A stretch of DNA of 64,000 bases. It comes from Ktedonobacteraceae bacterium (lineage in GTDB: Bacteria; Chloroflexota; Ktedonobacteria; Ktedonobacterales; Ktedonobacteraceae). Position 1 is the first letter of the stretch; the number at the start of each line of letters is the position of its first letter. Location of the stretch: assembly GCA_035653615.1 (NCBI GenBank), contig DASRBN010000030.1:248001-312000 (forward strand), written 5' to 3'. A program made the translations under genes and the position numbers. Shown here one piece after another: positions 1,649 through 27,322 of this stretch. The notes under the pieces were generated by a model, which saw only the letters and a program-made list of their open reading frames with translations, had not been told where the DNA came from and ran no database searches.

Positions 1649-2015
1649 TGGTGGAGATGGGGGAGAGTCGAACTCCCCGTCCAAACGGACCCATCGAAGA
1701 ATGTACTACAGGTTTAGTCAGTGTTTTTGCTTTGCGCTTCGGACTCCCACCGACCGGATTCCTCAGCGCTGGCCCTCTGGTCTTAGATGACGATTAGAAG
1801 GCGGTCCTCGTCATAGCGTCCCGCGTGTGTGACGCCCTGATCTGACCCCACGGGAAAAGGTCAGGAGGACGACGCTTTACTGTTTCTTAGGCAGCGAGAG
1901 CGTAAGCAGGTGCCTGTTTGGCATCTATTGTTTGTCGGTTGTTTAACGAGAGTGCATACCGACACCTCGACCTGCAATTCTCCAACCTGTTCGTCTGTCG
2001 AAACCCGACATCCCC
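1649..2015 (-). ncRNA. ssrA: Transfer-messenger RNA (tmRNA)
   Basis: One-piece tmRNA of 367 nt, which rescues stalled ribosomes and tags nascent proteins for proteolysis. The 5' end (GGGGATG) pairs with CATCTCC before the encoded 3' ACCA, forming the acceptor stem. The T-arm (GGGGAGTTCGACTCTCCCC type) is evident. The tag frame ends ..KQAPAYALAA followed by TAA at 1889-1887, the usual ALAA degron. The exact resume codon is not clear: the open frame runs upstream through QTIDA. The gene is intact although an integrase lies directly beyond its 3' end, as expected where an element regenerates its target. No convincing promoter was picked out upstream. Confidence 0.95.
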
Positions 2016-20713: not shown

Positions 20714-22216
20714 TTAGCGACCATAAGCCAGGCGCACCGCCAGGTAGTGTGGCAGGCCCGCTTTTATGATCTTCTCCTGTGTTTTCTCGATTGCGTAGGG
20801 GACACGATAAAATTCAAAACCGCGTTCGGTGTCATAGATCATAAACGCAGCTCGCGGATCGTTGTCGCGGGGCTGGCCAACTCCTCCCGGATTAATAATG
20901 GCCCGGTAGCCGTGCGGAGCTTCCCAGTGACCCTCCGGCGGCGTAAGCATCTCGTTTGTCACCTGAATCATGCTCTGGCTCAAACCGAGCAGCGCCAGCA
21001 GTTCCTCGATCTCGCTGTTCAGACGATCTTCATCAATAACGGCAGATTCTGGCGTAATCTCGCCACCTTCTTCCTCTTCAGGGCCACCATCTTTCTTATA
21101 GCCAGAATTATCAGCATCTTGCTGGTCGTCCGAGGCTTCTTCGTCGAGATGGATGTCTTCTTCTTCAACGTTTGTCTCTGTTACTGCGGTCAGCTCTGCT
21201 TCTGTGGGCGTTTCATCTTCATTGGATGTATCATGCTCATTTGTAGGATGGTCTATGATGTTAGCGCCTTTTGATGTGGGTGGCTCAGCTTCGGATGCTG
21301 TCATTTCTTCGTTGTTCGCGGGTGCATCAATCGGAGCTGTTCCTGAATCAGCCAGGATGTGGTTCTCATTCTCCGGTGTATTCACTTCAGATGGGCTGCT
21401 GATCCTGGTTTCATGGTCTGCTTCATTTGCGGTGGTATCTACGGCAGAACCTGTTGCATCTGGAGTGTTCAGATGGCTTTCTATGATTGCGTTTGCCTCT
21501 GCCTCGGAGACCGTCAAACCGCTTTCGGGGTCTCTGTAGGCGCTGGGTGCTTCTTGCACCAGTTGAGCGGCAAGCATGGATTGTTGGGGAGAAGGATGGA
21601 CGGTTACTGTTTTTTCTCCCTCATCGTCCTGGTCAGCAGTATGGTTTTCAACGCCGTTAGACTGGATGGGGAGAACTACGTTCTGTTCTGTGTCTGCCAG
21701 GGGAAGAGTTGGTGTGTTAGCGATAGTATCCGGTTGTTGAAAAATTACCGGGACATGCGTATGTCCGACAAAACAGTAACGGGTGCTAAAGTATTGAAAG
21801 CTGCGTTCCGCCAGCACTTCGGAAGTTAGATATTCCCAGAGCGGACCGAAAGGGCTGCCGTGTACCAGCGTGACCTCGCCTTTGATCAGGCGTTCGGGCA
21901 GATTCGCCAGAAATTCGCGGTGTTCAGGTGTGAGCCGTTCCGCCGTCCATTCTGCCGAGATGCGGGCGTGCGCGCTGAAATCTTCCAGGTCGATCTTGCC
22001 TACGGCTGCCCAGTCATGATTTCCGGCAATGATGACACCGGTACGTTCGCGGAGTTTGAGGATGCATTCATTCGGGTTCGGCCCGTAGCCTACGAGGTCA
22101 CCGAGGAACCAGATTTCGTCAATTGGTTCTGTCTGGGCAATCTCGTCTATTTTTGCAAGGACTGCCTCTAGAGCTTCCAGATTGGCATGTATATCGGTAA
22201 AAACGGCGTAACGCAT
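20714..22216 (-). CDS. Metallophosphoesterase with large acidic insertion
   Basis: A 500-residue calcineurin-like (YfcE/MJ0936-type) phosphoesterase. Metal-binding motifs are in order: FTDIHANLEAL (D-x-H), WFLGDLVGYGP (GD), IIAGNHDWAA (GNHD), TLVHGSPFG and CFVGHTHVPVIF (GHTH). After about residue 175 comes roughly 220 residues of Asp/Glu/Thr/Asn/Ala-rich low-complexity sequence, and only then the final beta strands of the fold (YRAIINPGGVGQPRDNDPRA). Usual members are about 240 residues without such an insertion. Substrate unknown. First gene of the operon with pth. Confidence 0.85.
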   Translation of the reverse strand: MRYAVFTDIHANLEALEAVLAKIDEIAQTEPIDEIWFLGDLVGYGPNPNECILKLRERTGVIIAGNHDWAAVGKIDLEDFSAHARISAEWTAERLTPEHREFLANLPERLIKGEVTLVHGSPFGPLWEYLTSEVLAERSFQYFSTRYCFVGHTHVPVIFQQPDTIANTPTLPLADTEQNVVLPIQSNGVENHTADQDDEGEKTVTVHPSPQQSMLAAQLVQEAPSAYRDPESGLTVSEAEANAIIESHLNTPDATGSAVDTTANEADHETRISSPSEVNTPENENHILADSGTAPIDAPANNEEMTASEAEPPTSKGANIIDHPTNEHDTSNEDETPTEAELTAVTETNVEEEDIHLDEEASDDQQDADNSGYKKDGGPEEEEGGEITPESAVIDEDRLNSEIEELLALLGLSQSMIQVTNEMLTPPEGHWEAPHGYRAIINPGGVGQPRDNDPRAAFMIYDTERGFEFYRVPYAIEKTQEKIIKAGLPHYLAVRLAYGR

Positions 22217-22963: not shown

Positions 22964-22999
22964 TTGACAAAAGCTGATATTGTCTCATACGATATGAGA
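22964..22999 (+). promoter_or_regulatory. cysS promoter with perfect dyad over the -10
   Basis: TTGACA (22964-22969) and TACGAT (22988-22993) are 18 bases apart. A perfect inverted repeat, TCTCATA-CGA-TATGAGA (22983-22999), covers the -10 box completely, as expected of an operator. The cysS start is about 50 bases downstream. No T-box motif is seen in this leader, so regulation by a DNA-binding protein is inferred. Confidence 0.65.
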
Positions 23000-23046: not shown

Positions 23047-25494
23047 ATGAAGATCTACAATACCCTGACCAGAACAGTTGAAGAGATTATCCCCATCGAG
23101 CCTGGCAAGATCAAGATGTATTCGTGCGGTCCTACCGTCTATCGTTATATTCACATTGGCAACCTGCGTACCTTTACGATGGCCGATTGGATACGACGCG
23201 CTTTTGAGTATCGTGGTTATGAAGTGCTGCACGTCAAAAATATCACCGATGTCGGTCATATGCGCCAGGAGATGGTTGATCGTGGCGAGGATAAGATACT
23301 GGCCCAGGCCCGCAAAGAAGGCAAGACCTCGGCACAGATCGCCCAGTTCTATACTGAGGCATTTCATGCCGACGAGCGCAAGCTCAATATCGAACCTGCG
23401 ACTATCTTTCCCCAGGCCACTCAGCATATTCCGGAGATGATCGAGATCATTCAGGGCTTGCTGGAAAAAGGTATCGCCTATGAAGTCAACGGCAATGTGT
23501 ACTTCGATATCAAACGCTTCCCCGATTATGGCAAGCTTTCGGGCAATCAGCTTGAAAACATGCTGGCGGGCGTGCGCGAAGGAGTAGTGGCCGACCGGCG
23601 TAATCCTGAAGATTTTCCCTTATGGAAAGTGGCTGAACCGGGACGCGAGATGGCATGGGATAGCCCCTGGGGCCGTGGATTCCCCGGCTGGCATATTGAG
23701 TGCAGCGCTATGTCTATGAAGTATCTGGGGCCACATTTCGATATCCATACCGGCGGCGTCGATAACATCTTTCCCCATCATGAGGACGAGATCGCACAGA
23801 GCGAGGGATACACAGGTGAGCCTTTTGCCAATTACTGGGTTCACGCGCAGCATCTATTGGCCGATGGGCAGAAGATGGCTAAGTCCACTGGCAATGCCTA
23901 TACCTGTTCCGAGATTGAGGCGCGTGGCTTCGATCCCATGGCTCTGCGGTATTTTTATACCACGGCGCTCTATCGCAGCCGCCTGAATTTCACCTTCCGC
24001 GCCCTGCAAGCTGCTCAAACTTCGCTCGAGCGCCTACGAGACTATGCCTACCTGCTTTACATGCAGGCCGATAAATCGGCGATGGCCGCGATCAATCGGG
24101 CCCTACAGAGTACCGGTGAAGGAGATAGTCTTCCACAAGAGGCTCTGGTTCGTTCCTGGCAGGAAGCGTTTCTAGCAGAGGTTGAAAACGATCTCAATAT
24201 TCCACGCGCCATGGCGGTTGTGTGGGACATGCTACGCGATGGTGAGCTTGAGCCAACGACCAGAGTAGCGCTCCTGCTCGATTTTGACCGTATCCTGGGC
24301 TTTGATCTCAAGGGCTATCTTGAAAGTGATCGCCCGCGGCGAAAAGCCGATGCCCAGACCTACCTGGCCGCGGTTCCTGCCGATATTGCTGAGAAAGTGC
24401 GCGAACGCGAATCACTTCGCAATCGCGGTGAATATGCCCAGGCCGATTCTCTGCGCGAAGCAATCGAGGCAGCGGGGTATACGATTCAAGACACTGATCA
24501 TGGGTCGCTGGTGCAGCCGCGCCGCCTGGAAGACGAATTCACCGTGCTTTCAAGTTCCAGCGATGCACCTGATAACACACGTGCTCCTGATCTATATGAG
24601 TTTTCGGTCAATCTGCTGGCGCATAATAGCCGTGGCGACCTGGAACGTTGCATCTTGAGCATTTGTCGCCACACCTACCAGCGCTCAATCGAACTGGTCA
24701 TCGTCGATAACGGTTCGACAGATGAGACGTTGCCCTATCTGCAGGAACTGGCGCGTCATGGCGACCTGACGGGTGAAAGTGGCCAGCCCATCGGACTGCA
24801 GGTCCTGTTTGCCGATCATAATATGGGATTCGCTGCCGGTCGCAACGCCACCATGCGTACCAGCCGCGGCCACTATGTCGTTCTTATGGATACGTCGATT
24901 GAGGTCAAGGGCAATGTCTGGGAACCCTTAGCATTGGCTCTGGCAGATCGCAACAATGGTGTAGTGGGCCCTTATGGGTTGGTGACCGAAGACCTGCGCG
25001 AGTTTGCAGAAGCCGCAGGGCCAGACGTGGATGCCATCGAGGGCTATCTCATGGCGTTCCGCCGCGAACTGCTGTCAGAAGTGGGCTGGATCGATGAGCG
25101 CTTCCGGTTCTATCGCCTGATGGATATCCATTACAGCTTTTTCTTCAAGACCTCTGGCTATCGTGTCCTGACTGTTCCAGAGGTTGCTGAACGCGTCGAA
25201 AAGCACCCGCATCGCGAATGGTTCAGCCTGAGCGAGGATGAACGCGCCACGAAAAGTAAGAAGAACTACGATATCTTCCGTGATCGCTGGCACCACGGTC
25301 AGAGCCTGCTCGTCGCCAACTATCGTGCCGAGAACATGTGGCGGGGTCACGATCACCCACACCATCTGGAAGGAACGCATACCCATGCCCCGGATGAACT
25401 ACCTCCTGCTGGCGCCATGCATACCCATATCCACCAGCACTGGCCCGATCACTCGCATGAACATCCTCACTATCATGAGATCCGGCCAGCGTAA
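23047..25494 (+). CDS. cysS: Cysteinyl-tRNA synthetase fused to GT2-like domain and His-rich tail
   Basis: An 815-residue protein. Residues 1-490 are a full class I cysteinyl-tRNA synthetase: SCGPTVYRYIHIGN (zinc Cys and HIGH-type motif), ECSAMS (second zinc Cys), FPHHEDEIAQSE (zinc His and Glu), KMAKSTGN (KMSKS), and the C-terminal anticodon region ending GYTIQDTDHG. Residues about 518-750 form a GT2-like domain (IELVIVDNGSTDETLPYLQE, HNMGFAAGRNATM), but the expected DxD reads MDTSIEV, so catalysis is doubtful. The last about 45 residues contain 15 His. CysRS alone is about 460-490 residues. The start is ATG at 23047, matching the family N-terminus (MKIYNTLTR). The frame is continuous without shift. 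Confidence 0.93.
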   Translation: MKIYNTLTRTVEEIIPIEPGKIKMYSCGPTVYRYIHIGNLRTFTMADWIRRAFEYRGYEVLHVKNITDVGHMRQEMVDRGEDKILAQARKEGKTSAQIAQFYTEAFHADERKLNIEPATIFPQATQHIPEMIEIIQGLLEKGIAYEVNGNVYFDIKRFPDYGKLSGNQLENMLAGVREGVVADRRNPEDFPLWKVAEPGREMAWDSPWGRGFPGWHIECSAMSMKYLGPHFDIHTGGVDNIFPHHEDEIAQSEGYTGEPFANYWVHAQHLLADGQKMAKSTGNAYTCSEIEARGFDPMALRYFYTTALYRSRLNFTFRALQAAQTSLERLRDYAYLLYMQADKSAMAAINRALQSTGEGDSLPQEALVRSWQEAFLAEVENDLNIPRAMAVVWDMLRDGELEPTTRVALLLDFDRILGFDLKGYLESDRPRRKADAQTYLAAVPADIAEKVRERESLRNRGEYAQADSLREAIEAAGYTIQDTDHGSLVQPRRLEDEFTVLSSSSDAPDNTRAPDLYEFSVNLLAHNSRGDLERCILSICRHTYQRSIELVIVDNGSTDETLPYLQELARHGDLTGESGQPIGLQVLFADHNMGFAAGRNATMRTSRGHYVVLMDTSIEVKGNVWEPLALALADRNNGVVGPYGLVTEDLREFAEAAGPDVDAIEGYLMAFRRELLSEVGWIDERFRFYRLMDIHYSFFFKTSGYRVLTVPEVAERVEKHPHREWFSLSEDERATKSKKNYDIFRDRWHHGQSLLVANYRAENMWRGHDHPHHLEGTHTHAPDELPPAGAMHTHIHQHWPDHSHEHPHYHEIRPA

Positions 25495-25717: not shown

Positions 25718-27322
25718 TTGCTCGAAGACGTACAATTGTTCACCACTTCGGACCTACAGCGATTGCACCACCTCGCATCGGATCGTGTCGTCGTGCTGAA
25801 TGGAGATATTGGACCGCTCACTATTGAACAAGAAGAGGCTCTCTGTGCATTCATCGCGCAGGGAGGTGGGCTGGTGTGTGTAGGTGATGCGGCAGAAGCT
25901 TACCATGAAAACCCGCTACTGGGCGAGGTATTAGGCCATATTCATGGGTTCTGCACGCCGCGTACCGAGATTATTGCTCGCGTAGCCACATCCGATCACT
26001 ACCTGACCCGTCGTTTTGACCCATCCTTCACCGTATTTGAAGCAGTCTACATGCTGGATAGTGTTCCGCCGGATGCCGAGATTCTCTGGCGTAGCTCCTG
26101 GCACTATGCGACACACGTCCTGGCCTATGCCCGTACATATGGCCGGGGACGTGTTTTTTGCACCACGCTGGGCAGCGCTCGTGAAACGCAGGAACTGCCA
26201 ATTTTCCAGCAGATGCTTAACCGGGCGATGCGTTATGCCTCTGGCGTGGAGACGGAGGAGCAGGTCAAACGCGTAGCGATGATCGGCTACGGCGCGATTG
26301 GCTTCGAACACGGCACCGCCATCAGCGAAGTACCAGGATTAGCATATACCCTGATCTGTGATCGCAATGAGGAGCGTTTAGAGGCAGCGCGAAAGGCTTT
26401 TCCGGGCGTGAGTACCTGCACCGATCTATCCCAGGTGGCGGCAGACCCCAGTATCGATGTGGTCATCATTTCCACGCCGCCCAATACACACGCCGAAATA
26501 TCCATGCAGATGCTACGAGCGGGCAAGCATGTGGTTTCAGAAAAGCCATTTTGTTTAACAACGTCCGAGGCCGATGCAATGATTCAACTGGCGCAGGAGA
26601 AGCAGCTGGCTCTGACAGTGTACCAGTGCCGGCGCTGGGACCCGGACTACCTGGCAATTCAGAAGGTACTCAAGCAGGGAACGATTGGCCCCGTGTTTCA
26701 CATGGAAACATTCATCGGTGGCTATGCCCATCCTTGTGATTACTGGCATTCACACGAGCCGATCTCTGGCGGCGTGTTCTATGATTGGGGGTCGCATTAC
26801 CTGGACTGGATTCTGCAGCTGATTCCTGATAACGTGGTGAGCGTGCGTGGCATCGAACACAAGCGTGTCTGGCACGATATCACTAATGCAGACCATTCGG
26901 TCGTCTACCTGCGCTTTGCGGGTGGGCAGGAAGCGGAATTTATGCACTCGGATATCGCAGCTGCGATGAAGCCGAAGTGGTATATCCTGGGCGAACGGGG
27001 AGCGATTGTAGGACACTGGCGGCAGGAAATCGTGAAAACACGACGCTGGTCCGGTGATCTGATCGAAGAGCGACTGGCGCCATCGGAGGCGTTACCTGAA
27101 GTGTTTGTCTATACCCGTGAAACGAGCGGAGCAATCCACGAGCAGCGCCTGATGTTGTCCGAAGCGCCCCGTTATGCCTTTCATCGCAACCTGGCAAACC
27201 ACCTGCATTGTGGTGAGCCGCTGGCCGTGCTGCCAGAAGAATCGCGCCGCAATATTGCGGTAATGGAGGCGGCCAAGAGGTCAGCTGAGCGCGGCGGGGA
27301 GACAATTGCCCTGGAGTGCTAA
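25718..27322 (+). CDS. ThuA-like domain fused to Gfo/Idh/MocA oxidoreductase
   Basis: A 534-residue two-domain protein. Residues 1-185 resemble the ThuA/glutamine-amidotransferase-like fold (VVVLNGDIGPLTIEQEEALC, FIAQGGGLVCVGDAAEAYHE, GRGRVFCTTLG). Residues about 188-534 are a Gfo/Idh/MocA dehydrogenase with the NAD motif MIGYGAIGFEHG, VVIISTPPNTHAEI and the catalytic EKPF (VVSEKPFCLT). Both families act on sugars and are often neighbours, so an NAD-dependent sugar or polyol oxidation is likely; substrate unknown. The start is TTG, chosen because AGGAG lies 7 bases upstream; the ThuA fold appears to lack its first strand. Confidence 0.8.
   Translation: MLEDVQLFTTSDLQRLHHLASDRVVVLNGDIGPLTIEQEEALCAFIAQGGGLVCVGDAAEAYHENPLLGEVLGHIHGFCTPRTEIIARVATSDHYLTRRFDPSFTVFEAVYMLDSVPPDAEILWRSSWHYATHVLAYARTYGRGRVFCTTLGSARETQELPIFQQMLNRAMRYASGVETEEQVKRVAMIGYGAIGFEHGTAISEVPGLAYTLICDRNEERLEAARKAFPGVSTCTDLSQVAADPSIDVVIISTPPNTHAEISMQMLRAGKHVVSEKPFCLTTSEADAMIQLAQEKQLALTVYQCRRWDPDYLAIQKVLKQGTIGPVFHMETFIGGYAHPCDYWHSHEPISGGVFYDWGSHYLDWILQLIPDNVVSVRGIEHKRVWHDITNADHSVVYLRFAGGQEAEFMHSDIAAAMKPKWYILGERGAIVGHWRQEIVKTRRWSGDLIEERLAPSEALPEVFVYTRETSGAIHEQRLMLSEAPRYAFHRNLANHLHCGEPLAVLPEESRRNIAVMEAAKRSAERGGETIALEC

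Follow-up and report, generated by a model that had tools for sequence, protein, structure and literature searches.

A cysteinyl-tRNA synthetase fused to a glycosyltransferase-fold domain in Ktedonobacteraceae and other Chloroflexota

We describe a Ktedonobacteraceae gene that encodes a cysteinyl-tRNA synthetase (CysRS) continued in frame by a glycosyltransferase (GT) domain and a His-rich tail. The gene lies in a 64,000-nucleotide stretch of genomic DNA that was analyzed at its full length and is referred to below as the window. The CysRS-GT fusion is a real architecture, and a probably ancient one in Chloroflexota. As an account of the whole protein, we tentatively favor (probability of about 0.45) an auxiliary CysRS carrying a GT-A module that would be anchored on tRNA-Cys, with charging, tRNA-anchored action of the GT domain, and ligand and metal binding as its predicted activities. 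The fusion is a widespread and unexplained translation-linked component in Chloroflexota, including ocean SAR202 and soil bacteria, and it raises the question of whether tRNA-Cys is sugar-modified or specially handled in the bacteria that bear it. Aminoacyl-tRNA synthetases with fused extra domains are a known kind of protein. In the open-access literature, we found no role described for this fusion, as the original prediction had supposed, and no report of any aminoacyl-tRNA synthetase fused to a glycosyltransferase fold.

Results

Organization of the fusion gene

The originally proposed succession of CysRS, GT2-like domain and His-rich tail was borne out along one uninterrupted frame (Table 1), whose ATG agrees with the conserved start in Ktedonobacteraceae homologues. 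The CysRS half matched TIGR00435 (cysS) with 449 bits against a cut-off of 340, and PF01406 with 341.6 bits over residues 16-324. An alignment of 56 family sequences shows no variation at the Zn-ligand positions C27, C219, H244 and E248, and with HIGN, KMAKS and all four Zn ligands in place the synthetase is predicted to be catalytically complete, as first suggested. The whole-protein AF2 model (mean pLDDT 88.5, pTM 0.86) had as its top structural match the E. coli CysRS-tRNACys complex (1u0b_B, TMt 0.86). The CysS_C domain of this protein scored 17 bits, under the Pfam cut-off of 23; its residues R454, R458, D467 and D482 align with E. coli R423, R427, D436 and D451, of which we take the last three to be anticodon-reading residues.

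Table 1. Window positions of the fusion gene, its promoter and the parts of its product.
Feature	Position	Strand	Evidence
CysRS-GT fusion gene, ATG start, 815 aa	23047..25494	+	one unbroken ORF
Sigma-70-like promoter of the fusion gene, TTGACA-18-TACGAT	22964..22993	+	form recurs in relatives
CysRS, residues 1-489 (catalytic, stem-contact and anticodon domains)	23047..24513	+	TIGR00435, AF2 model
HIGH motif, here HIGN, residues 36-39	23152..23163	+	H36, G38 and N39 invariant in family alignment
KMSKS motif, here KMAKS, residues 276-280	23872..23886	+	family alignment
CysS_C anticodon-binding domain, residues 444-489, with R454, R458, D467 and D482	24376..24513	+	Pfam, conservation
GT-A fold, GT2-like domain, residues 517-755	24595..25311	+	PF00535, AF2, Foldseek
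Altered DxD, D615-T616-S617	24889..24897	+	alignment, n=110
xED aspartate D693, candidate catalytic base	25123..25125	+	alignment
C-His, H720	25204..25206	+	alignment; C-His as defined in PMC7185993
His-rich tail, residues 768-815	25348..25491	+	signature in relatives
Predicted His-faced beta-hairpin around WPDH, residues 792-808	25420..25470	+	two AF2 models

The promoter begins 83 bases 5' of the ATG, and its form TTGACA-18-TAC[GC]AT was found 5' of five Ktedonobacteraceae fusions, the window's included. Since close relatives have this form in common, the fusion gene need not depend on yqeY, which lies in front of it. A perfect palindrome, TCTCATAcgaTATGAGA (window 22983-22999), covers the -10 element; it was rejected as an operator, since it occurs only once in the genome and is not preserved among relatives.

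The fusion resembles the CysRS with a GH insertion (NF011108/PRK14536-like; Borrelia 3sp1) in that the synthetase is full-length, keeps all motifs and contains the GHMxxExxDxGEDK insertion. It differs from them by its C-terminal GT-A domain and tail and by its presence beside another CysRS.

Conservation of the fusion among Chloroflexota

Among 84,980 species genomes scanned, 95 relatives were found, of which 80 were kept. Nearly all of the relatives found in this way were in-frame CysRS-GT fusions, and those kept came almost entirely from Chloroflexota: Ktedonobacteria (Thermogemmatispora, Dictyobacter, Ktedonobacteraceae), Chloroheliaceae and SAR202/Dehalococcoidia. Thermogemmatispora and Dictyobacter are cultured hosts. 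Furthermore, the fusion, or a copy of it cut by a contig end, was found in 25 of the 61 kin genomes sampled (the window's own included), and the CysS_C-GT module in 65 of 251 genomes drawn evenly across the phylum, both figures being lower bounds, with many of the genomes fragmented metagenome-assembled genomes (MAGs). The fusions of the kin genomes share 43-77% identity in the GT-tail part and have frames of similar length. The original prediction had called for a search for the same architecture in other Ktedonobacteria, where separate cysS and GT genes at this place would have spoken for a local error or a chance fusion; the relatives are fused instead.

The 73 non-redundant fusions formed one side of a branch with a support of 95 in a tree built from 115 CysRS-type proteins, and this clade was placed among the CysRS with the GH insertion. 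For pairs without saturated dS, dN/dS was 0.05-0.07 in the CysRS, 0.04-0.09 in the GT domain and 0.03-0.19 in the tail; all three parts are under purifying selection. Together, the fused relatives, the single clade and the purifying selection rule out a sequencing error or a local chance fusion. An in-frame stop reported for one sequence (G019) is the normal terminal stop, and the other in-frame stops reported were assumed to be alike.

The fusion or the module also occurred in L106, L115 and L146, which come from MAGs whose labels are Proteobacteria, Nitrospinota and Actinobacteria. L106 sits inside the Ktedonobacterial fusions and is probably mis-binned; for the other two, mis-binning and transfer are both possible.

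Other CysRS and tRNA-Cys genes

A search with PF01406 revealed a further CysRS in 16 of 16 genomes, complete SAR202 chromosomes included. The fusion is therefore an auxiliary CysRS, and its being the sole or housekeeping enzyme is ruled out. The window's genome, for which the presence of another cysS had originally been raised as a check, holds three CysRS-type genes: besides the fusion, one for a CysRS of 484 aa and one for an MshC-like protein of 409 aa. Of 14 genomes searched by pattern matching, 13 had one tRNA-Cys gene and the other had two; five of these genes were confirmed as GCA by ARAGORN. Given one tRNA-Cys and a separate CysRS, the fusion most likely shares its tRNA with the second enzyme, and its N-terminal 489 residues most likely charge tRNA-Cys with cysteine alongside it.

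A special tRNA partner or an RNA leader was considered and rejected, as there was no Rfam match at 20-28 kb of the window and no tRNA-Cys gene beside the fusions; just one tRNA-Lys and one tRNA-Ala were found, near two of the scanned relatives. The 64-kb window contains no tRNA gene, only a tmRNA gene (1649-2015, minus strand; tag AKQAPAYALAA). In the CysRS*/SelC* pair of Desulfobacterales, too, an additional CysRS has a special role (PMC9437257). That enzyme, however, is without an anticodon domain and is tied to a tRNA of its own, whereas the anticodon domain of the fusion is intact and no tRNA-Cys gene is nearby.

Ordinary CysRS from several Chloroflexota families (L175, L195, L197-L203) have KMAHS or KVAHS for KMSKS, the second Lys being replaced by His. 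Some of these genomes have no other CysRS apart from a shorter MshC-like match.

The original prediction had also raised a possible link of the fusion to a nucleotide sugar, for example in the synthesis of low-molecular-weight thiols. A mycothiol-like enzyme would accord with the CysRS ancestry of MshC and with the MshC-like gene elsewhere in the genome, where MshA- and MshB-like genes scoring under curated cut-offs are found too. However, MshA is a GT4 enzyme of GT-B fold and MshC has no anticodon domain, whereas the fusion combines a GT-A fold with an intact anticodon domain, and its CysRS half scored 221.3 bits with the MshC model, far under the cut-off of 485.1. Furthermore, the MshC-like gene of this genome is separate from the fusion, and in the fusion-bearing SAR202 genomes no MshC-type gene scores above the CysRS family cut-off; these genomes show only one other CysRS-type gene, which clusters with ordinary CysRS. 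These observations make a thiol enzyme very improbable.

Active site of the GT-A domain

PF00535 matched residues 523-653 with 62.3 bits (cut-off 23.3). A construct comprising CysS_C, GT and tail was modeled by AF2 with a mean pLDDT of 90.1, and Foldseek matched the GT domain to GT-A enzymes (E 4e-12), with GalNAc-Ts and the GT2 enzyme 6p61 on top.

The active-site elements of GT-A enzymes, namely the DxD, the xED aspartate and the C-His, have been described (PMC7185993). In our alignment, the second DxD position (617) is Asp in 0 of 110 sequences. The first Asp, D615, is present in 106 of the 110 (79/80 fusions), the xED aspartate D693 in 108 (80/80 fusions), with the Glu of xED replaced, and H720 in 102 (77/80 fusions). 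The pocket residues R673, Y689 and R690 are nearly invariant in fusions. The altered DxD noted originally is thus present, D615-T-S617 standing at that position. The label of a degenerate GT holds for the lost second Asp and not for the xED aspartate and the C-His, which are kept. Judging from the alignment, DxS is a fixed feature of the family rather than a product of random degeneration. Activity is neither proved nor excluded by the lost second Asp, since some GT-A enzymes are metal-independent and others have DxH. Compared with GT2 enzymes (6p61; K4CP, 2z86/2z87) and GT27 GalNAc-Ts, the family has the same fold, xED aspartate and C-His, as well as sequence similarity, but differs by DxS in place of DxD or DxH nearly throughout and by the fused tRNA-binding domain.

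Standalone CysS_C-GT proteins

A second protein of the window's genome (L076:9502-10449; 315 aa) starts with a CysRS-type CysS_C domain, continues into a GT domain of the same family as that of the fusion and has no synthetase part. Such standalone proteins recur in many other Chloroflexota genomes, and CysS_C scored above the Pfam cut-off in several of them. CysS_C directly precedes the GT domain in all copies that a contig end does not truncate, 30 standalone ones among them, and the positions of R454, R458, D467 and D482 are intact in 30 of 30 standalone copies. In the GT tree, the standalone copies do not form a single group; they sit at two or more points on the side where the Ktedonobacterial fusions are also found, suggesting that the synthetase part was likely lost once or more. 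In one genome, a standalone gene lies tail-to-tail with a fusion-type CysRS gene (L236:4823-7555). We found no report in the open-access literature of the CysRS anticodon domain as a portable tRNA-targeting module.

Even where charging is impossible, the GT has been kept together with a tRNA-contact domain, and this is our strongest reason for thinking that it acts on tRNA-Cys or by way of it. The same retention weighs against an active glycosyltransferase with a lipid, polysaccharide or protein acceptor, for which fusion would merely mean co-expression or co-localization. GT2 homology is clear and GT2 enzymes usually act on such acceptors, but the tRNA-contact positions are intact even without a synthetase and no polysaccharide gene cluster was recognized at the fusion loci. 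We regard a non-tRNA acceptor as improbable.

The standalone copies also bear on whether the GT-A domain is catalytic. D554, in its nucleotide-binding strand, is lost in half of them, and some lineages (L237-L239) have lost the xED aspartate and the C-His, as would fit a non-catalytic module. A pseudo-glycosyltransferase, in which catalysis is lost and the GT-A domain serves an auxiliary CysRS as an extra tRNA-Cys-binding, dimerization or scaffold domain, is consistent with this erosion of the active site while anticodon residues stay intact, with the canonical DxD absent throughout and with the precedent of COSMC, a GT-A pseudo-enzyme (PMC7185993). Conversely, a scaffold has no obvious need of D615, D693, H720, R673, Y689 and R690, which are near-invariant in fusions. 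Although we consider such a domain unlikely, it is the alternative that we take most seriously.

Proposed role of the fusion

In the auxiliary CysRS that we favor, the CysRS half would charge tRNA-Cys as described above, and CysS_C and GT would form a working unit, with CysS_C recognizing tRNA-Cys by its anticodon region and bringing the GT-A domain there. Judging from the domain order, the latter would lie on the anticodon side of the bound tRNA, far from the charging site. Its site, non-canonical and presumably still ligand-binding, would act on tRNA-Cys itself, either by modifying it or by gating its use upon a nucleotide-sugar-like ligand. The absent second Asp, the loss of D554 and the erosion in L237-L239 all argue against this reading, as does the lack, at the fusion and standalone loci inspected, of a neighbor shared across classes that would suggest tRNA modification. 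We consider a module that binds a ligand and is directed at tRNA-Cys somewhat more probable than one that is purely a pseudo-enzyme.

A more specific proposal is a tRNA-Cys glycosyltransferase, made of the CysRS anticodon domain and a GT-A domain without canonical DxD, fused or alone, that would add a sugar to the tRNA and couple this modification to charging. This proposal is doubtful. By analogy only, QTGAL/QTMAN and Glu-Q-RS (YadB) illustrate sugar transfer to, and aminoacyl-tRNA synthetase-type modification of, the tRNA anticodon region (PMC12518689, PMC9437257); they act on queuosine tRNAs with GUN anticodons, whereas that of tRNA-Cys is GCA.

The His-rich tail

The tail comprises the last 48 residues (HDHPHHLEGTHTHAPDELPPAGAMHTHIHQHWPDHSHEHPHYHEIRPA) and is a two-stranded hairpin in both AF2 models, with pLDDT of about 60-75. 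Its signature HxHxHxH(W/L)(P/S)(D/E)HxH was found in 24 relatives, on genome contigs from the Ktedonobacteria-Chloroheliaceae side. In SAR202, the fusions stop soon after the GT domain and the signature is absent; a few (L130, L131, L134, L149) have short His-rich ends unrelated to the tail. The tail is an accessory feature of the Ktedonobacteria-side clade, and metal sensing or binding cannot be the common role of the family. The metal sensing originally suggested is therefore not supported as a core function and would be conceivable solely as an addition in Ktedonobacteria, while metal binding by the Ktedonobacterial tail, as an accessory hairpin, is plausible by analogy with His-stretch metallochaperones (PMC2770081).

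This distribution also bears on a zinc-stress paralogue, a back-up CysRS whose tail would store Zn or supply it to the synthetase. Zur-regulated CysRS paralogues that keep their Zn ligands have been predicted in Proteobacteria (PMC2770081), and Zn ligands and tail are conserved here. However, those paralogues have no GT described and are linked to zinc genes, whereas no zinc genes were recognized beside the fusions, the promoter palindrome is unique in its genome, the tail is missing from most non-Ktedonobacterial fusions and the GT would be left unexplained. A zinc-stress role thus appears highly unlikely.

Gene neighborhoods

In Ktedonobacteraceae, yqeY lies upstream of the fusions and ThuA-Gfo/Idh or Lon-substrate-like genes lie downstream. 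In SAR202, the neighbors are a MeaB-like gene in some cases and pyruvate kinase together with a cation-exchanger-like gene in others. Standalone copies have a PepF-like neighbor in Ktedonobacteraceae and different ones elsewhere. Names other than yqeY and ThuA-Gfo/Idh are our reading of the sequences.

In the window, a calcineurin-like phosphoesterase (20714-22216, minus strand) has an acidic low-complexity stretch of more than 200 residues in its C-terminal half. At 25718-27322, one gene joins an N-terminal ThuA domain to a Gfo/Idh/MocA oxidoreductase, and in four relatives a homologue likewise lies 3' of the CysRS-GT gene.
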